Translations under genes and position numbers: made by a program | DNA from: Trueperaceae bacterium | GTDB taxonomy: Bacteria; Deinococcota; Deinococci; Deinococcales; Trueperaceae | Direction: 5' to 3' | Assembly: GCA_030147925.1 (NCBI GenBank) | Contig: JASBUK010000078.1 | Span: 1 to 39,392 of the forward strand | DNA length: 39,392 nt | The notes under the pieces: generated by a model | What the model was told of the DNA's origin: nothing | The model's database searches: none | What the model saw: only the letters and a program-made list of their open reading frames with translations | Shown: in pieces, positions 3,992 to 12,601 of the stretch | Position numbering within the stretch: the first letter of the stretch is position 1 | Layout of the letters: every line of letters begins with the position of its first letter

Positions 3992-4684
3992 ATGATCGGA
4001 ATTATCGGCGCCATGCCTGAGGAGCTGGCCACGCTTTTGGCTGACCTGGAAGATGCTGAGAAATTACCCAGCGGAGACTTTGTACTCTACCGGGGCGTGC
4101 TCGAGCAGCAGCCAGTACTGATTGCTCAGTGCGGCATAGGCAAGGTAAATGCCGCAGCGCTCACCCAGCTCATGTTGTTAAAGGGCGCAAGCAGCATCAT
4201 CTTTACCGGCGTGGCCGGAGCGCTGGCGCCGGAGCTGGATGTCGGCGACATTGTTATTAGCACCGACGCCGTACAGCATGACTTAGACGTCACTGCGCTC
4301 GGCTACGAACCGGGGCAGATACCCGGCGAATCTTTTAGCTGGTCGGCAGATGAACAGATGCGCAATGTGGCCTTAGCGGCGGCCCAAGAACTAAATGAAG
4401 TCAAGGTTGTCTCGGGGCGGATTGCCTCGGGTGATCAGTTTATTGCCAGCCCAGCAAAGGTCGCAAACCTGCGCGAAACCTTTGCCGCGGCCTGTGCCGA
4501 GATGGAAGGGGCCAGTGTGGCCCAGGTTTGCGCCAAAAGCCGAGTGCCCTTTGTGATTATCCGCAGTATCAGCGACACCGCCGACCACGATGCTAGCGTT
4601 AACTTTCGTGAGTTTACGCCCTTAGCAGCCAAACGAGCTAAGCATGTAGTGAGAGCAATGCTGCGCCGTCTTAAGGCCGCCTAA
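3992..4684 (+). CDS. mtnN: 5'-methylthioadenosine/S-adenosylhomocysteine nucleosidase
   Basis: A 230-residue cytosolic enzyme that hydrolyses methylthioadenosine and S-adenosylhomocysteine to adenine plus the thioribose sugar, in methionine salvage and the activated methyl cycle. It starts IGIIGAMPEEL, with Glu11 matching catalytic Glu12 of the E. coli enzyme. It contains the FTGVAGAL segment, the substrate-binding EMEGAS (Glu172), and ISDTAD with Asp195 matching the catalytic Asp197. The length is normal for the family. It ends convergently with the glycosidase gene: its TAA (4682-4684) and the other gene's TAG (complement of 4681-4683) share the four bases CTAA, so there is no room for a terminator between them. 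Confidence 0.95.
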   Translation: MIGIIGAMPEELATLLADLEDAEKLPSGDFVLYRGVLEQQPVLIAQCGIGKVNAAALTQLMLLKGASSIIFTGVAGALAPELDVGDIVISTDAVQHDLDVTALGYEPGQIPGESFSWSADEQMRNVALAAAQELNEVKVVSGRIASGDQFIASPAKVANLRETFAAACAEMEGASVAQVCAKSRVPFVIIRSISDTADHDASVNFREFTPLAAKRAKHVVRAMLRRLKAA

Positions 4685-6516
4685 AGACGCAGGAGATATA
4701 ACAGAGCCGCAGCGTCCCAGGCTTGTGGACGGCAGGCCACCGGATAAGGCACCGGCGGGGCATCGCTGCGGTTATAGCCGGCGATAAGTTCAGGCAAACG
4801 TTTATCGGCCTGGCTGGCGGCCAGATCATAAAGCGCTTGGCGAATCTTAGCTGCCTCGTCATGAAAGCCGTAACGAACCAGTCCACCGGCAATGAGGGCC
4901 GTGTCATGGGGCCAGACCGAACCGTTGTGATAACTAACGGGGTTGTAGCGCGCTTCACTCTTGCCCAGCGTGCGGATGCCCCAGCCACTCCAGAGCTCTT
5001 CAGACATAAGCGTTTTTACCAGCTTAGCTGCAAATTCTTCAGGAACGATACCCGCCCAGAGCAGTTGTCCGGCATCGGAGTTGTGCACGGCCAGAGGTTT
5101 TTTCTTACCGTCTAAGGCCATGGCGTAAGTTTGTAGCTGCTTAAGCCAGTAGGCCTCATGGAACTTTGCTTTTAACTCGGCGGCAGACTCAAGCCACTGG
5201 GCTGCTTTGTCTGCTTCGTTTAGCGCCTGGTAAAAATCGGCGGTGGCTAAGTAGGCGGCATAGGCATAAGCCTGAACTTCACTCACGGCCAGCGCGCCCT
5301 GAGCCAGCTCACCGTTTGCGTGACTCATCGAGTCAGCGGAGTCTTTCCAGGACTGTATGACCAGCCCTTTGCCGGGCTCGGCCCCTTCAAATTCAATAAA
5401 GCCGTCACCGTCAATATCGCCATCGTTTTTTAGCCACTGTAGCGCCGCCTCCCAGTTGGGTTTGAGCTCAGAAACAAGGTCTAGCCTGCCGCTGTGCTTA
5501 TACAGTTCATGCAAGACGATGATAAAAAGCGCGGTGGCGTCGACAGTACCGTAATAGGGACGGTGGGGGGTTTTACCCAAACGGCTTAACTCGCCAAAGC
5601 GTAGCTCGTGCATTATCTTGCCTGGAGCCTCGGTGCTAAAGGCGTCATATTTTTTCCCTTGCAAGGCAGCTAGATAGCGCAAAGTGCCCTCAGCCACTTG
5701 GCTTTGCCAGGGCAGCAGCATATAGGCTGTCAGCAGCGCATCACGGCCAAAGGCAGCCACAAACCAGGGAATGCCGGCAGCAGGTATAGGGCCATTTTCG
5801 GTAAAAAGCAAGAGGGCACGCAAGTCGTCAATGGCTCGGTTTAAGACTTGCTGCTTAGCGGCACTATCAAGCTTTAAGGCAAAACCTTCACGCCAGTTTT
5901 CATAGCTAGTGACAGTTGCCGGGCTATCCAAAGGGTTTTCAAGTAAAATTTCCACCTGCAAATCTTTATGTTCACCTGGGTTTAGCCGAAGTTCAAACAG
6001 GGCGCCATTATCAGACAATTTTTGTGGAGCCGGGCTAAACTTAGCTCGAGCTCCCATCACTAGGTTGTCCTGGCCGCGGTAGCTAAAGTTCAGGCTGTGC
6101 CGAGTGCTTTTAGTCTTTACTGCTTCGCGCTCTAACTCAAACCAACCCCGCACTGCAAACAGGTCCAGGAAATCTGCCGCTAGGGAAAGCTCGAGCTCAA
6201 TAGTCCTTATCTCCTGGCTGCTGTTTTCCAAGACGAGCTTATCTGTTAGACGCTGCGGCGCAAGTTCTAACTCCCGCCGAATACCAATAGCCTGCGCGGG
6301 ATCTTCGATGAGTGCATAGTGCGCCTGATAACGGTCCGGGCGCGGCGAATGGCTGAGCAGCGTTTGAAAGCCCGCGCCAAAATCCCAGGCATAACGGCTT
6401 AAGTGGCGTGTGTCCCGGCAGTAAAGGCCGTGTTCGCCGCATTGTATTTGCCCCGATTCATCGGCCACCAAAAACGTGTAATTTTCTTTTAGAACGAGAT
6501 TCTTGCTAAAGTCCAT
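4681..6516 (-). CDS. glycogen-debranching-enzyme-family glycosidase (amylo-alpha-1,6-glucosidase-like)
   Basis: A 611-residue protein with the two-domain layout of bacterial GDE-family proteins. Residues about 4-200 form the beta-rich GDE_N_bis-type domain (LVADESGQI, YCRDTRHLSRY). Residues about 220-605 form an (alpha/alpha)6-barrel with WFVAAFGRDALLT (251-263), YGTVDATALF (322-331), WKDSADSM (390-397) and SVWPHDTALIAGG. These motifs mark the catalytic pocket of amylo-1,6-glucosidase-like enzymes. No signal peptide is present, so it should act in the cytosol on sugars brought in by the adjacent ABC transporter. It is the last gene of the lacI operon, 41 nt after the second permease gene. Its substrate could be a branched alpha-glucan oligomer or a glucoside/mannoside; the GH130 neighbour argues for the latter. 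Confidence 0.82.
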   Translation of the reverse strand: MDFSKNLVLKENYTFLVADESGQIQCGEHGLYCRDTRHLSRYAWDFGAGFQTLLSHSPRPDRYQAHYALIEDPAQAIGIRRELELAPQRLTDKLVLENSSQEIRTIELELSLAADFLDLFAVRGWFELEREAVKTKSTRHSLNFSYRGQDNLVMGARAKFSPAPQKLSDNGALFELRLNPGEHKDLQVEILLENPLDSPATVTSYENWREGFALKLDSAAKQQVLNRAIDDLRALLLFTENGPIPAAGIPWFVAAFGRDALLTAYMLLPWQSQVAEGTLRYLAALQGKKYDAFSTEAPGKIMHELRFGELSRLGKTPHRPYYGTVDATALFIIVLHELYKHSGRLDLVSELKPNWEAALQWLKNDGDIDGDGFIEFEGAEPGKGLVIQSWKDSADSMSHANGELAQGALAVSEVQAYAYAAYLATADFYQALNEADKAAQWLESAAELKAKFHEAYWLKQLQTYAMALDGKKKPLAVHNSDAGQLLWAGIVPEEFAAKLVKTLMSEELWSGWGIRTLGKSEARYNPVSYHNGSVWPHDTALIAGGLVRYGFHDEAAKIRQALYDLAASQADKRLPELIAGYNRSDAPPVPYPVACRPQAWDAAALLYLLRL

Positions 6517-6557: not shown

Positions 6558-7988
6558 CTAGCCTTTTGTGCCGCCAAACGACACACCTTCTAGAAAGTAT
6601 TTCTGGAAAACGATAAAGAGAATGACAATCGGCAGAGCGCTCATAACCGCCCCGGCTAAGATGATGCCCCAGTCACCGGTACCGCCATAGACGTTGCGAA
6701 AAGTCAACAGGCCGATGGGTAGGGTCTTGATGTCTTCGGGGGTGGTGAGCACCACAAAGGGCCAGAAAAAGTCGTTCCAGGCCCCCTGGAAGGTGAGAAT
6801 GGTCAGCGCGCCCAGTGCTGGGCGGGCCATTGGCAAAACCACGTTCCAGTAGCGTTGCCACTGACTGGCCCCATCAATCATGGCGGCCTCTTCGATCTCC
6901 CGGGGGATTGACTCAAAAAATTGCTTCATGATAAAGACTGCACCTGCCCCTACCAGACCTGAGAGGATGACCCCCGTGAGGCTATTTAGGAGGGTAGTCT
7001 GGCCCCAGAGGCGTGAGAGGCTGAAGATGCCGTCACGCAGAACCAGATAGTTGGAGATAAAGATGACCTGCCCGGGGATCATTTGCGCAAAGAGAATCAG
7101 GATGAAGATGAGGTTTTTACCCGGGAAACTGAGCCGAGCCAGCGCATAACCGGCCATGGAGGCAAAGAGCAGGGTAGTCAGCACTTTGGCAAAGCCGATA
7201 ATAAAAGAATTGCTGACCCAGTTAAGAAACAGACTGCGTTCGGTGGTGATGCTGCGGGCTTCGCTAAAGGTGCGTCGGTAGTTATACAAGACATAGCCAA
7301 GCACGCCGGGCGCCACATTGTCATACGAGGCTACGCGCCCACGCCGCTCGAGCCGACTTAGCGATAGCGTTGATCTTGCATAGCTCTGCCTGCGAGGAGC
7401 AGTGATGTCTAAGGGCAAACGGTTTATCTCAGGGCCATCACCTTCGTAGAGGATACGAAAGGCATAGGTCACAAACTGGCCGCTGAGCTCCTCGTCACGA
7501 ACCACAAAACGACCAGTTTTACGCTCAATTTCTTTAACCGGAGTTATGGTGGCATAATCTGCGGCATAGTCAATTGCTAGTACCGAGCCAAGACCTGCTC
7601 CGGGACGGCGGCGTGGCACTACCGGCTCGGGCAATTCGGGCTCTTGACCCTCGGGCACGAAATAAATTATTTCAAAAGGAACATCGGCTCCGGGAGCAAA
7701 TCCACCCCACCAGCGATTGTTAGCCCCGGCTCTGCCTAATCTGGCAGCGGCGGCCCAATTGCGCGGTGAAAGCTGCGGAATATTTAGCGTCGGTGGGTAG
7801 GCGGTGGGATCGGTTCTTACGCTGGAGATCGTGGCAAACAGAATTGGGCCTAAAAAGATGATGGCAAAAGCAAGCATGACTGCGTAGGTGAGGCCTGCTC
7901 TGGCCCAGAGGCGGCGGGCTTGCCAACGGTTGAATTGTTGCTGGCTGATCCAGTTGGGTTTGGCACTGCTGCTTAGGGCTCGAGCCAT
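6558..7988 (-). CDS. MalG-type sugar ABC transporter permease with a large extra-cytoplasmic insert
   Basis: A 476-residue inner-membrane permease; MalG-type proteins are usually about 270-300. The first membrane segment (about 34-56) is followed by roughly 190 residues of polar, Pro/Arg-rich sequence (about 57-250) facing the periplasm, then the canonical membrane segments. The EAA loop (EEAAMIDGASQWQRYWNVV, about 366-384) docks the ATPase. The C-terminus has FQGAWNDFFWPFVVL and ends in GTKG, typical of the family. The ATG at 7988 overlaps the TGA of the preceding gene by one base and has GGAGG 8 nt upstream, so I chose it over the GTG at 7991. A GCTCGAGC octamer covers codons 2-4. Confidence 0.92.
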   Translation of the reverse strand: MARALSSSAKPNWISQQQFNRWQARRLWARAGLTYAVMLAFAIIFLGPILFATISSVRTDPTAYPPTLNIPQLSPRNWAAAARLGRAGANNRWWGGFAPGADVPFEIIYFVPEGQEPELPEPVVPRRRPGAGLGSVLAIDYAADYATITPVKEIERKTGRFVVRDEELSGQFVTYAFRILYEGDGPEINRLPLDITAPRRQSYARSTLSLSRLERRGRVASYDNVAPGVLGYVLYNYRRTFSEARSITTERSLFLNWVSNSFIIGFAKVLTTLLFASMAGYALARLSFPGKNLIFILILFAQMIPGQVIFISNYLVLRDGIFSLSRLWGQTTLLNSLTGVILSGLVGAGAVFIMKQFFESIPREIEEAAMIDGASQWQRYWNVVLPMARPALGALTILTFQGAWNDFFWPFVVLTTPEDIKTLPIGLLTFRNVYGGTGDWGIILAGAVMSALPIVILFIVFQKYFLEGVSFGGTKG

Positions 7989-9124
7989 CACTGTGCCTCC
8001 GAGCGAATAAAGCGCCGCTGAATAAGCACCACCAGCAAGGTGAGTGCCGCTAAGAAGATAGCCGCAGCCGCAGCAAAGCCAACTTCTGGCGTTTGCGCCC
8101 CGGGAAACATGCGGTTGTAGACAAAAAAGGCCAGCGTGATAACCGACCTTAAGGGCACGGCACTGCCAAAAATTGCCACCTGGTCAAACATTTGTAAAGT
8201 GCCGATAAGACCCAGGGTGATTACCAAAAAGGTCACGGGCTGCACTGCCGGAATGGTGATGTAGAAAAATTGCTGCACAGGACTGGCACCATCCAGCGAA
8301 GCCGCCTCGTACTGCGATTTGGGTACATCTTGCAGGGCCGCTAGAAACATCAGCATAAAGGTGGGTATGGTGGTAAAGATATTTTGAATCATGATGGCAA
8401 TAAGCGGCACAGCGGCGCGTAAAAAGGTGGGGAAGGCTGCGGGCACTTCCTGCCGCGTTTGCAGCCAGATAAAGTCAACCGGGACAATTTCACGAGGGAC
8501 AATGACGCCACTGATATTGAGAAGCCAGGTACCGGCGAGCGCCAATAAAAACGAAACAACAAAGAGTGCCGGGTCAAACCAGCCTGCCGGTAGACCCCGG
8601 CGTCGTTCGATAAATACCTGTAACAGCTGAGCGATGAGCAATATGGCGAAAAATACAGCTATGAGCGGTAAATAACTGAGCAGTTGAGTGCTCAGATAGT
8701 TAAAGACACCACGGCGCTGGTACATCCACATAAAGATGAGCGTGATTACCACACTGCTGGTGATGCTGGGCATGTAATAGGCCGCGCGAAAGAAATCGAG
8801 GCCGCGAATTTTAGTGTTTAGGGCCGCGGCCATAACCAGCGCGCCAAAGGTCTGTACCGAAGTAACGATAAACGCAAAGATTATAGAGTTCCTTAAGGCA
8901 ATCAAAAAAAGCTCTTCTTTGAACAGGTTGAGATAGTTTAGTAGGCCCACCCATCTAAAAGGGTCTTCGCCACTGTAGTTGGGGTCTAAGTTAAAAAGAT
9001 TGTAATTGCTAAAGCTAAAGATAACGGCACGTACCGTGGCGTAGACAAAAAAGATAAGCAGCGTAATTAAAAAGGGCGCTAAGAAGAGATAGGCTGCAGT
9101 GATTTCTTGCCGTCTAATTCTCAC
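7988..9124 (-). CDS. MalF-type sugar ABC transporter permease
   Basis: About 378 residues with many membrane segments. The EAA loop (EAASLDGASPVQQFFYIT, about 273-290) contacts the ATPase. Between the early segments (about 12-38, 78-100, 113-134) and the core lies an extra hydrophobic block (about 148-170 and 185-205) with an intervening basic loop, making it larger than a minimal MalF-like permease of about 290 residues. The GTG at 9124 is preceded by AAAGG at 8-nt spacing; upstream in-frame codons reach 9229 but have no clear ribosome-binding site. No MalK-like ATPase gene is in this locus, so a shared ATPase encoded elsewhere is likely. Confidence 0.9.
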   Translation of the reverse strand: MRIRRQEITAAYLFLAPFLITLLIFFVYATVRAVIFSFSNYNLFNLDPNYSGEDPFRWVGLLNYLNLFKEELFLIALRNSIIFAFIVTSVQTFGALVMAAALNTKIRGLDFFRAAYYMPSITSSVVITLIFMWMYQRRGVFNYLSTQLLSYLPLIAVFFAILLIAQLLQVFIERRRGLPAGWFDPALFVVSFLLALAGTWLLNISGVIVPREIVPVDFIWLQTRQEVPAAFPTFLRAAVPLIAIMIQNIFTTIPTFMLMFLAALQDVPKSQYEAASLDGASPVQQFFYITIPAVQPVTFLVITLGLIGTLQMFDQVAIFGSAVPLRSVITLAFFVYNRMFPGAQTPEVGFAAAAAIFLAALTLLVVLIQRRFIRSEAQ

Positions 9125-9240
9125 CGTCACTACCTTTCTGCGATGGCTAAACGCAAATTGTGTGTACTGAAACATTGGATAAGTCCTGCTAAAAACATAA
9201 ACTGCGACACACAATTTGGGGCACGACATTAAAGAGTGCC

Positions 9241-9279: not shown

Positions 9280-10509
9280 TTAGCGATTGGCGCGTTCGAT
9301 CAGGGCGTCAATTTCGTTCTGAGCAGCGCTAAGCGCGGCATTTACATCCTGCTGACCGGTCATTACAGCGGTCAGGGCGTTGTTAATCGGCGCCATCCAA
9401 TCGGTGCCTACCTTGCCAAACTGGAAGCCAATGACATTACCGCTGGCCGCACCCTCAAAGACAATACGGTTGGCTTCCGATTCGACCGTTCCCTCGGCAA
9501 AGAAGGGATTGTCAGCTAGGGCCGTGCGGCTGGGGATGGCCAGGCCGTTTTCAAGTACGAACTGCTGGGTATCCGTGCTGGTTAGCGCTTTCAATACAGC
9601 CACGGCGGCATCACGGTTGGCGGTGTCCGCGTTGATGCCCCAGGCAACGGTGTAGAGGAAGTTACCGCGCTCGCCAGAAGGCCCAATGGGCATAAAGGTC
9701 GTGCCGAATTGCAGATTGGGGGCGGCGTCGCGCAGGAAGCCCAGAATCCAGGCACCCTCTATGGCAACGCCGACATTATCGGTGGCAAAGCAGCCGCCGG
9801 TCCAGCCTTCACCAAGATCGCTTGGTTGTACGGCAACGCCTTCTTTGACCAGATCGGTGTAGTAGCTAAAGGCCTCGACAAAGCGCTCGTCAAGCAGATC
9901 GGTATTGCCAGCAGCGTCAAAGGGTTGCCAGCCGGCAGCGAAAGCAAAAGCGCCAAAGCGGGCAAACTCGGCGGGGAAGCAAGCGCCATAAACATCATCG
10001 TCCAAGGCGGCTACGCCGCGAAGCTTATTAGCAAAGCTGTCCCAGTCGTCGTTTTCATTGGGGTATTCGACAGCGGCTTCATCAAAGAGGTCCTTGTTGT
10101 AGTGGATGGCCAGGGTGTTAAAGTCCTTGGCAATGCCATAGAGCTGGTTATCGATGGTGTAAGTGTCTACCAGACTAGTGATGAAGGGACCGGAGTCGAC
10201 AAGATCATCAAGCGGCAGCACTTTACCGCTGGCGATGATGCCGGGGGCGGTTTCGGCGGGGATATAGAAAAGATCGGCGGCGGTGCCTGCCGAGAGCGCA
10301 TTGGTTAGTGCAGCGTTGTAGTCACCCTCTAAGGGTTCGTACTGCACGGTGATTCCTTGTTCGGCCAAATCATCGCCGATTACTTCATCTAAAAGACGAG
10401 CGACAATACGTGGGTCTTCGCCGCCATAACCCATGATGCGTACAGTGGTTTGGGCCAGGGCGGCGGTGACAAAGGCCAATACCAGGATACTGATAGCAAG
10501 CTTCTTCAT
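9280..10509 (-). CDS. sugar ABC transporter substrate-binding protein
   Basis: A 409-residue secreted solute-binding protein of the MalE/family 1 type. A Sec signal peptide (KK, then a hydrophobic core, ending AALA with cleavage before Gln20) lacks a lipobox cysteine. The mature protein therefore may be periplasmic or held in some other way. The mature part has the DLFYIPAE hinge region, LYGIAKDFNTLAI, AIEGAWILGFL, and YTVAWGINADT, typical of oligosaccharide binders. The start has a GGGAGGAAAT ribosome-binding site. It follows lacI by about 77 nt and is separated from the permeases by a strong terminator. The sugar is unknown; GH130 and debranching-type neighbours suggest a mannoside or mixed glucoside oligomer. 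Confidence 0.93.
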   Translation of the reverse strand: MKKLAISILVLAFVTAALAQTTVRIMGYGGEDPRIVARLLDEVIGDDLAEQGITVQYEPLEGDYNAALTNALSAGTAADLFYIPAETAPGIIASGKVLPLDDLVDSGPFITSLVDTYTIDNQLYGIAKDFNTLAIHYNKDLFDEAAVEYPNENDDWDSFANKLRGVAALDDDVYGACFPAEFARFGAFAFAAGWQPFDAAGNTDLLDERFVEAFSYYTDLVKEGVAVQPSDLGEGWTGGCFATDNVGVAIEGAWILGFLRDAAPNLQFGTTFMPIGPSGERGNFLYTVAWGINADTANRDAAVAVLKALTSTDTQQFVLENGLAIPSRTALADNPFFAEGTVESEANRIVFEGAASGNVIGFQFGKVGTDWMAPINNALTAVMTGQQDVNAALSAAQNEIDALIERANR

Positions 10510-10586: not shown

Positions 10587-11585
10587 TCACCTCCTTTTGG
10601 CGGTAGTACCGCGAACGATTAACTGTACGGGAACGGTTTCATGCCTGATGGGTTTGCCACTGAGTCCTTCCTTAAGCAGGTCTACGGCCACGGCGGTGAT
10701 TTGTTCTATGTCTTGTCTGATGGTGGTCAGGGTTTCGCCAATTTCTGGTAAATCGTCAAAGCCAACCACCGAGATATCCAGCGGCACACGCAAGCCAAGG
10801 TCTTCAAGAGCGGCAATTGCCCCTATCGCCATCTCATCGGAAGCAGCAAAGACAGCGCTAAAATTCAGGCCATCTTCAAGCGCCTTGCGTACAGCGCGAT
10901 AGCCGCCTAATGAGCTGAAGTCGCCATCTAACAACAACTCGGGGTGAGGTTTAATACCGGCGTTGTTTAAAGCAGCGAGATGACCCTGATAGCGATCTTG
11001 AAAGGCCTGATTGTTCATAAGGCCACTTAAGTGGACGATGTCACGATGCCCCAAACGCAAGAGGTGCTCAACCGCCTGGCGTCCACCATCGTAATCGTCT
11101 GGTACTACCCAGCGAATACCTTCACCGTGTCCCACCAAAACAAAGGGAATATTGTGCTCTTGCAAATAATGAATCCGTGGGTCATCGTCGTGAGCGCCAA
11201 AAAGCACCATGCCGTCAGTCAGTTCTGTCGGCAGGCCCTGGCTGTCTGACTGAACCTCTTCAAATCGGAAACCTTCAGCTTGCAACTCACCCATTAAATA
11301 TTCGAGAAATAGCGTAAAAAAAGGCGTTAAGCGGCGGCTTCCCGCAGCGATGCTGAGGCCGATGCGGGTCGGTTGGCGAAAAGACAATTCTCTGGCGGCA
11401 AGATCAGGCTGATAATTGAGGTGGATGATGGCTGCCTGTACGCGTGCTCGGGTTTGAGCCTTTACTCCGGCGCGATTATTGAGTACACGACTAACTGTAC
11501 CGGTAGAAACGCCGGCCTCTTTAGCCACATCCTGGATGGTGGGCCGGGGTTTTTGGGGGCTCGAGCTTAGCGGTCTTGCCATCAT
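10587..11585 (-). CDS. LacI-family transcriptional regulator
   Basis: About 332 residues. The N-terminal helix-turn-helix (TIQDVAKEAGVSTGTVSRVLNN) and hinge are classic LacI/PurR. The remainder is the periplasmic-binding-like sensor with VGFDDLPEIGETLTTIRQD near the C-terminus, where family members have the DDxP...LTTIRQ motif. It would bind the palindrome at 11603-11622, just upstream of its own start, and repress both itself with the transporter operon and the divergent GH130 gene until an inducing sugar is present. Of two adjacent ATGs (11585, 11582) the first fits AGGTGAGG upstream. A GCTCGAGC octamer lies at codons 7-9. Confidence 0.93.
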   Translation of the reverse strand: MMARPLSSSPQKPRPTIQDVAKEAGVSTGTVSRVLNNRAGVKAQTRARVQAAIIHLNYQPDLAARELSFRQPTRIGLSIAAGSRRLTPFFTLFLEYLMGELQAEGFRFEEVQSDSQGLPTELTDGMVLFGAHDDDPRIHYLQEHNIPFVLVGHGEGIRWVVPDDYDGGRQAVEHLLRLGHRDIVHLSGLMNNQAFQDRYQGHLAALNNAGIKPHPELLLDGDFSSLGGYRAVRKALEDGLNFSAVFAASDEMAIGAIAALEDLGLRVPLDISVVGFDDLPEIGETLTTIRQDIEQITAVAVDLLKEGLSGKPIRHETVPVQLIVRGTTAKRR

Positions 11586-11602
11586 ACTTTTTAACCTCAC
11601 CT

Positions 11603-11652: not shown

Positions 11653-11689
11653 TTTATTGTCAAGAGGCAATGAATTATTGGAGGTCAAC

Positions 11690-12601
11690 ATGAGGCTCGA
11701 GCGACACCCCAACAACCCGCTGTTAAAACCCAATGTCCAGCACGATTGGGAGGCGTTAAATGTCTTTAATGCCGGCGTGGTTTATCACGAGGGGCTTTTT
11801 CATATGCACTACCGGGCGCAAGGCCTGGACTACATATCCCATATCGGCTATGCGGTCTCAGAAGATGGTGTAAATTGGAACCGCTTACAAAATCCCATCT
11901 TATCCCCAAGCTCTGAACAGGATGCTCGAGGAGTCGAGGACCCTCGAGTCACTTACTTAGGCGGTCGTTTTTATATGGCTTACACGGCCTATGGCCGACT
12001 TGGCCCCTACCCGGAAACGGGGGTGCCACCGACCGGCATCACGCCAATGTACGCAGTGAGTGATAACCTCATCAGCTGGGAGCCTTTAGGCCCAATGATC
12101 GTCGGTGAGGATAACAAAGATCACGCCCTCTTTCCGGCGAAGATTGACGGGCGCTACGTCAGCTTTCACAGGCGACCGCCCAGCATCTGGCTGGCCTTTA
12201 GTGTGGATATGAAAAATTGGGGAAAACACGTTGAGGTCATTAAGCCTCGCCCCGGCCTCTGGGACGGCAAGCGTGTAGGAGCGGGAGGGCCACCGCTTGA
12301 GACCGAAGCCGGCTGGCTGCTGATTTATCACGGCTATGACGAGAATCATGTTTATTGTTTGGGTACTGCATTGTTAGACAAGGATGACCCGCGCAAGCTG
12401 CTAAAGCGACCCACCCAGCCTATTCTCGTGCCCGAGGAACCCTGGGAGATAAAGGGCGACGTAGCCAATGTGGTCTTTAGCTGCGCCAACCCGGTGGTGG
12501 ACGGCACTGTATACGTTTATTACGGTGGTGCCGACAGGGTGATTGCCTTGGCGACGATAGAGCTGGAGGATTTGCTGGCCTGGACTATTGGTGAAGGTTG
12601 A
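11690..12601 (+). CDS. GH130-family glycoside phosphorylase/hydrolase (beta-mannoside type)
   Basis: A 303-residue five-bladed beta-propeller enzyme of the GH130 type. It starts RLERHPNNPLLKP and has FNAGVVYHEGLFHMHYRA, GYAVSEDGVNW, and the conserved GVEDPRV motif (82-88), which holds the catalytic acidic residue in this family. VYVYYGGADRVIALA is the closing blade. Known GH130 members phosphorolyse or hydrolyse beta-1,2- or beta-1,4-mannosides. No signal peptide is present, so it is cytosolic. I chose the ATG at 11690 because GGAGG lies 7 nt upstream and homology starts there. It diverges from lacI across a LacI operator and carries a second half-operator inside the gene. Phosphorylase or hydrolase activity cannot be decided without alignment of phosphate-binding residues. 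Confidence 0.9.
   Translation: MRLERHPNNPLLKPNVQHDWEALNVFNAGVVYHEGLFHMHYRAQGLDYISHIGYAVSEDGVNWNRLQNPILSPSSEQDARGVEDPRVTYLGGRFYMAYTAYGRLGPYPETGVPPTGITPMYAVSDNLISWEPLGPMIVGEDNKDHALFPAKIDGRYVSFHRRPPSIWLAFSVDMKNWGKHVEVIKPRPGLWDGKRVGAGGPPLETEAGWLLIYHGYDENHVYCLGTALLDKDDPRKLLKRPTQPILVPEEPWEIKGDVANVVFSCANPVVDGTVYVYYGGADRVIALATIELEDLLAWTIGEG
11879..11892. promoter_or_regulatory. candidate auxiliary LacI operator inside the GH130 gene
   Basis: Fourteen bases here (AACCGCTTACAAAA) are identical to one arm plus the centre of the main operator (11603-11622, read on the other strand). The centres are about 267 bp apart. A second arm is imperfect, so this would be a weaker site, placed like lacO2 within lacZ to allow looping. 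Confidence 0.45.

Follow-up and report, generated by a model that had tools for sequence, protein, structure and literature searches.

The window analysed here, i.e. the whole stretch of 39,392 nucleotides from a Trueperaceae bacterium (contig JASBUK010000078.1), contains a putative importer locus on its minus strand. A MalG-like permease with a large insert in its first periplasmic loop (P1) is encoded directly downstream of a MalF-like permease, and genes for a solute-binding protein (SBP) and a LacI-family regulator lie further upstream. The features, in coordinates of the window, are:

4681..6516, minus: GDE_N_bis / MGH1-like glycoside hydrolase, downstream of malG (PF14742 E 8e-42; PF22422 E 1e-17)
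6558..7991, minus: MalG-like permease, 477 amino acids, GTG start, ATG at 7988 possible (PF00528)
7818..7952, minus: first helix including TM1, residues 14-58 (AlphaFold2 secondary structure)
7254..7817, minus: P1-loop insert, residues 59-246 (conservation in 56 homologues of <92 % identity; AlphaFold2)
7323..7766, minus: ordered region within the insert, comprising a helix (76-90) and a beta domain (103-223) (AlphaFold2)
6561..7253, minus: permease core, residues 247-477, TM2 onward with EAA loop and C-terminus (Foldseek and VIA-align to E. coli MalG chains)
6828..6902, minus: EAA-type coupling loop EIEEAAMIDGASQWQRYWNVVLP (read in translation)
7988..9229, minus: MalF-like partner permease, 413 amino acids, directly upstream of the MalG-like gene (PF00528 E 1e-8)
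8510..8665, minus: extra MalF transmembrane hairpin, residues 189-240, with ERRRGLPAGWFDP loop, between core TM3 and TM4 (alignment of partners)
9280..10509, minus: cognate SBP, family 1/8 (PF13416 E 4.5e-26)
10587..11600, minus: LacI-family regulator (PF00356 and PF13377)
11657..12601, plus: GH130 protein, divergent from the LacI gene (PF04041 E 2e-67)

The PF00528 (BPD_transp_1) match in the MalG-like ORF covers residues 279-465 only (E 3e-17, 63.4 bits against a cut-off of 26.4), and the best sequence relatives of the ORF in the PDB are SugB, MalG and AlgM2. The coupling loop between the core helices, known as the EAA motif, reads EIEEAAMIDGA...LP, with E367, E368 and A370 invariant in 57 sequences. 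The BPD_transp_1 core, the EAA loop and the MalF-like and SBP partners together mark the system as a predicted CUT1-type sugar importer. With the profile of the maltose MalG equivalog (NF008231) the MalG of the window scored 116.4 bits against a cut-off of 261, and it is therefore not a maltose MalG equivalog. The N-terminus of the cognate SBP has a signal peptide ending ALAQ and is without a lipobox. The nearest model to the GH130 protein, beta-1,2-mannobiose phosphorylase (NF052550), gave 356.8 bits, below its cut-off of 450, and the tie between this gene and the importer is uncertain. The GH130 and GDE_N/MGH1-like genes nearby give a loose hint as to the substrate, which may be an oligosaccharide or a glucosyl or mannosyl compound. 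The genome of the window is very rich in CUT1-type permeases; the MalG query had 51 matches there (E ≤0.001), a count that includes MalF homologues.

The P1-loop insert of the MalG-like permease

In the MalG of the window 191 residues separate TM1 from the core, compared with 29-35 in every one of the 11 relatives without the insert. Among 26 paralogues from the same genome the figure was 23-46 in 23, the exceptions being L131 (168), L140 (94) and L145 (75). An earlier note on this DNA had described an insert of about 190 residues that is absent from ordinary MalG. The extra domain is real and ordinary MalG indeed lacks it, but 190 residues corresponds to the whole loop, the net gain being about 145-168 residues. 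A phmmer alignment to E. coli MalG gave about 154 extra residues, but the TM1 part of that alignment was not significant (-0.3 bits). ORFs of at least 180 amino acids in 25 stretches of the same genome that carry paralogues had no match to the insert profiles at E ≤10. One paralogue (L140, MalG ORF 4001-5104, minus strand) has a smaller hydrophilic insert in the roughly 94 residues between TM1 and core, matched by neither insert profile. Two others, L132 and L135, which in that genome matched the profile of maltose MalG best, carry additional membrane-like segments in the stretch from TM1 to TM2; there the same loop is enlarged by membrane helices rather than by a soluble domain.

The insert of the window contains 12.2 % Arg and 9.6 % Pro, against 4.5 and 3.8 % in the rest of the protein. 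Across the 57 aligned inserts Pro was high (mean 9.1 %, 6.1-12.1), whereas Arg ranged from 2.8 to 13.6 %, so that Arg-richness is not a family trait; the earlier description of the insert as Pro/Arg-rich fits the insert of the window.

Altogether 121 loci were examined, 79 of them full-length and insert-bearing, which corresponded to 65 distinct proteins including that of the window (57 at <92 % identity); the window itself occurred twice among the 79 (L001, L009), as did 13 other proteins. The other 42 loci were dropped by a length rule, including L038, L081, L084, L085, L090 and L106, which are apparently split, frame-broken or contig-end relatives of the insert family. The insert was thus present in 64 distinct full-length homologues, 56 of these at <92 % identity, from several phyla, with carriers among Trueperaceae, Thermaceae, Spirochaetota, Bacillota, Atribacterota, Alphaproteobacteria and Vibrio. 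In the survey of homologues that the earlier note had suggested, covering 57 sequences with the window included, at least 90 % conservation was found at 24 of 165 positions in the insert, compared with 77 of 233 in the core, so that the insert is more than a chance feature. Conservation peaked in the C-terminal part of the insert (201-240) and was lowest in the middle (161-180), which is variable and gapped. The conserved positions included Trp and Arg residues, e.g. W79, R213 and R216.

When genomes were surveyed with the insert profile at E 0.001 (the known carriers G113, G114 and G115 being counted among the matches), the window's phylum gave 84 positive genomes out of 111, 58 at E <1e-20 and 26 only at 1e-12 to 2e-4, the latter mostly of the type B-like kind described below. 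Matches were found in 3 of 149 genomes of Spirochaetota and, with candidates scored in part, in 8 of 249 of Bacillota and 1 of 240 of the class of an alphaproteobacterial carrier. None of 246 genomes of Actinomycetota matched, an empty answer that shows nothing alone, since candidates were scored in part and the set contained no known positive. Outside the window's phylum the insert is patchy. Viral contigs had no match to the insert peptide patterns.

AlphaFold2 modelled the full-length MalG, from a 55-sequence alignment, with a mean pLDDT of 85.4 and a pTM of 0.77; the ten-residue blocks of residues 71-240 had pLDDT values of 90-98, except for 77 at 131-140. The insert modelled alone (mean pLDDT 90.6, pTM 0.85) was a compact beta domain, in which a helix is followed by nine strands of at least three residues, with a short helix among them, and then by a helix leading to TM2. 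The insert is a conserved domain that is predicted to be well folded. Predicted disorder and poor conservation, the two outcomes that the earlier note had named as speaking against its proposal, were both absent. Disorder or an annotation error (read-through, fused ORF or wrong start) was ruled out as an origin of the extra residues by the open frame, the conservation and the ordered prediction.

A known fold for the insert was unsupported: Foldseek against solved structures gave nothing at E ≤0.001, and the best VIA-align result, Z 6.0 with 3.4 Å over 96 residues, is at a level that is common without a true relative. A profile search of solved structures with the insert likewise gave 0 matches at E 10. 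The weak fold neighbours were, going by their titles, mostly Ig-like domains, and four of the 57 members matched Pfam DUF11 weakly (best E 5e-4); both being weak, the insert is called beta-sandwich-like here and not a proven Ig-fold. The window's own insert had no match in Pfam. At E 1, the 57 members together matched twelve Pfam families, none of them a carbohydrate-binding module family; the NPCBM-associated match was that of one member, at 0.028. The insert is apparently without a curated family of its own.

A second group of MalG proteins, type B (L147-L158, from five family codes of the window's order; L155, with a split frame, excluded), are 404-438 amino acids long where the start is clear. 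Their inserts of 152-177 residues are homologous to those of the window's group, type A (hhalign 99.9 %, E 6e-32). A quick tree of the core placed the 36 type A rows and the 11 type B rows in separate groups, with SH-aLRT values of 95 and 98, and the sister of type A among the sampled rows consisted of insert-less actinobacterial permeases of a similar operon. The best quick tree splits the two types, yet a single clade of both was not rejected (p-AU 0.21), and the data are therefore compatible both with a move of the insert between the subfamilies and with a single origin followed by losses. While sharing the homologous insert, type B differs from type A in its separate place in the core tree, in other extras of its MalF and in an SBP-like gene downstream in several systems. 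Additional N-terminal membrane-like segments were seen in the seven type B MalF proteins looked at, and the gene downstream of malG in those several systems is SBP-sized with a signal peptide.

Partner proteins of the insert-bearing MalG

A MalF-like gene was found upstream of the insert-bearing MalG at all 49 loci with enough sequence, and an SBP gene upstream at all 41 testable loci. A LacI-family gene was present at 36 of 40 testable loci, a GDE_N/MGH1-like gene downstream on the same strand at 22 of 43, and a GH130 gene at 4 of 49. ABC-ATPase motifs were seen in ORFs of 2 of 49 insert loci, several of which are short, and in none of the window; with such motifs near so few loci, the importer probably uses an ATPase encoded elsewhere.

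The extra hydrophobic block that had been noticed earlier in the partner MalF was confirmed, and consists of two helix-like peaks, at residues 189-207 and 222-240. Both helices were above the threshold in all 56 aligned MalF sequences, the window's own and those of 55 partners; of the 56 non-redundant loci one was left out of the alignment, as its MalF is cut by a contig end. For the hairpin, a subset of the partners was compared with 16 ordinary MalF. The loop of the hairpin has a net charge of 0 to +4, and the positive-inside rule would place it in the cytoplasm. The block is a conserved membrane hairpin, not a second periplasmic domain. The stretch at the hairpin site is shorter in the MalF of the insert-less systems of the actinobacterial sisters, and also in the seven type B sequences as judged by eye.

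The insert-less actinobacterial MalG proteins (among L092-L119) resemble the MalG of the window in forming the sister core clade and in a similar operon (LacI, SBP, MalF and usually GDE), but differ in having no insert, a lipoprotein-type SBP and a shorter MalF extension at the hairpin site. The comparison set (L092-L121) comprised 30 loci, of which L106 is a fragment of the insert type and 15 had an SBP hit. No lipobox-like match was found in the SBPs of 38 of the 42 insert loci scored (37 of the 79 could not be scored), whereas the sisters had one in 15 of 15 loci with an SBP hit; the lipobox patterns differed between the two sets, and the contrast cannot be separated from phylum, as the sister loci, 15 in number, are actinobacterial throughout (five of them Herbidospora). 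Among the four flagged insert loci, L075 has a clear lipobox, and L062, L066 and L068 have an AxA-type site after the Cys. The SBP of L067, an unflagged insert locus, has no recognisable signal at the chosen start.

As a control within the window's own genome, 24 ORFs beside insert-less permeases, from 23 of 25 stretches, were picked by eye for a signal ending AQ or SQ. Of these ORFs, 23 matched SBP_bac_1 or SBP_bac_8, and that of L145 matched nothing. In their first 75 residues the sole lipobox-like match was that of L128, far behind the signal. With 23 Pfam-confirmed SBPs of insert-less systems in the same genome lacking a lipobox, soluble SBPs do not need the insert domain, and the idea that the insert goes with a soluble SBP was weakened.

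Once shared ancestry was allowed for, insert and SBP showed no significant co-divergence: the partial distance correlation was 0.13, a value attained in 141 of 999 permutations (28 loci and the window). The corresponding values were 0.51 for MalF and SBP and 0.20 for insert and MalF.

Relation to known permeases and possible role of the insert

The MalG of the window is like E. coli MalG (chain G of 2r6g and 3rlf) in its core, its EAA loop and its pairing with a MalF-like subunit and an SBP, and the alignment to 3rlf_G (VIA-align) gave a Z of 18.9 over 256 residues at 3.3 Å. It differs in about 150 extra residues in P1. MalF and MalG are related by pseudo-symmetry, and the P2 domain of MalF follows the helix that corresponds to the first core helix of MalG. 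The MalE protein of E. coli was reportedly found by Daus et al. in 2007, going by the title (cited in PMC3150292), to contact both P2 of MalF and P1 of MalG. The insert resembles P2 (PF14785) in its length, in being periplasmic and in coming after the first core helix of its subunit, so that the two lie at pseudo-symmetric places; it differs in sitting in MalG and in having no sequence match to P2. Homology to P2 was unsupported: none of the 57 members matched PF14785 at E 1 (E. coli MalF as a control gave 4e-61), and hhalign of insert and P2 gave a probability of 1.0 %. Foldseek alignments of the full-length MalG with E. coli MalF chains, six in all, spanned 503-531 columns, with rmsd values as high as 16.8-19.7 Å. 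The likeness to P2 put forward in the earlier note therefore stands for the place of the loop, and not for sequence ancestry.

MalF has a periplasmic domain of 180 residues between helices 3 and 4 (PMC2246101). The same paper reports that in MalG1 and MalG2 of Thermotogales helices 1 and 2 are separated by about 500 hydrophilic residues, and assigns them no function. These proteins share with the MalG of the window a large hydrophilic insert in the same loop, but their insert is two to three times longer and the MalF of the lineage also has a P2 loop (PMC2246101). Given this precedent, a large insert in this loop of MalG is not new as a kind. In the open-licence literature, no description of a window-type insert was found beyond the Thermotogales precedent.

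The insert, then, is a real and conserved feature of P1 that is predicted to fold by itself; MalF and SBP genes accompany it, and usually a LacI gene as well. We lean slightly towards its being a contact domain for the cognate SBP, a reading based on the P1 position, the predicted autonomy, the conservation and the constant company of an SBP gene (41 of 41 testable loci). The MalG subunit would have gained an autonomous, beta-sandwich-like domain in P1, which would be placed at the periplasmic face beside the translocation pore and would touch the SBP lobe over MalG. It may thereby raise the local concentration of the SBP and help to align it for delivery, a role that would parallel, from the other subunit, the one thought for MalF P2 in E. 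coli; the MalF transmembrane hairpin could add membrane contacts within the same complex. The mostly lipobox-less SBPs of the insert systems, against 15 of 15 sister loci with a match, would make sense if a freely diffusing partner had to be retained. Contact with the SBP is made less probable by the phylum-bound nature of that contrast, by L075, by the 23 own-genome SBPs, by the negative co-divergence result and by the absence of homology to P2.

The main rival to SBP contact is bracing of the complex. As a structural brace or assembly factor, the insert would pack on the periplasmic side with the MalF hairpin and stabilise MalF-MalG with no specific contact to the SBP, which we hold to be unlikely. 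The co-occurrence of insert and hairpin in type A (55 of 55 partners and the window), the lack of significant insert-SBP co-divergence and the thermophily of several carriers (Thermus, Meiothermus) argue for it, but mesophiles such as Sinorhizobium and Vibrio are carriers too, the insert-MalF correlation is likewise low and type B combines its insert with the shorter stretch in MalF. It is distinctly improbable that the insert itself binds the sugar, in the manner of a carbohydrate-binding module, and passes it on to the pore or the SBP. The beta-sandwich-like prediction and the conserved W79, R213 and R216 would suit such binding; many of the conserved positions are, however, Gly or Pro, as in a scaffold, no carbohydrate-binding module family was among the Pfam matches of the 57 members at E 1, and a dedicated SBP is encoded alongside at every testable locus.

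Many insert carriers belong to diderm groups, and the Alkaliphilus group is monoderm. In the diderms the insert might tether the importer to an envelope component, peptidoglycan or outer-membrane, which is consistent with these many carriers and with the 0 of 246 actinobacterial genomes, a partly scored set with no known positive that shows nothing alone. This appears very improbable, as the insert is carried by L075, a MAG of Alkaliphilus, the domain is small, and the many other CUT1 systems of the genome, as far as examined, lack it. That the insert is a decoration tolerated with no role in transport, as its variable, gapped middle could suggest, is hardly credible given the invariant residues kept across several phyla and its presence in a second permease subfamily as well.

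A broader idea may tentatively be entertained, with more doubt than confidence: CUT1 importers would have evolved an SBP-docking domain repeatedly, each time in the pseudo-symmetric loop that follows core helix 1, as P2 of MalF in the maltose lineage and as a MalG P1 domain of unrelated sequence here, the MalG version having arisen in, or moved between, two permease subfamilies. The choice of the docking subunit would then be an evolvable module. MalF P2 is usually viewed as a peculiarity of maltose importers, and a domain at the mirror position in MalG would offer a natural experiment on whether P2-like domains matter through their position and contacts or through ancestry. The topology of MalF with P2 is called unusual in PMC2246101.

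As no Pfam family matches convincingly, annotations such as 'carbohydrate ABC transporter permease' (e.g. in Thermus and Sinorhizobium records) hide the insert domain. The record NC_003037.1 of S. meliloti 1021 has no gene annotated at 746865-747431, and the insert domain is encoded at these positions of the symbiotic megaplasmid pSymA (NC_003037.1:746865-747431, minus strand), in a laboratory strain that is genetically tractable.
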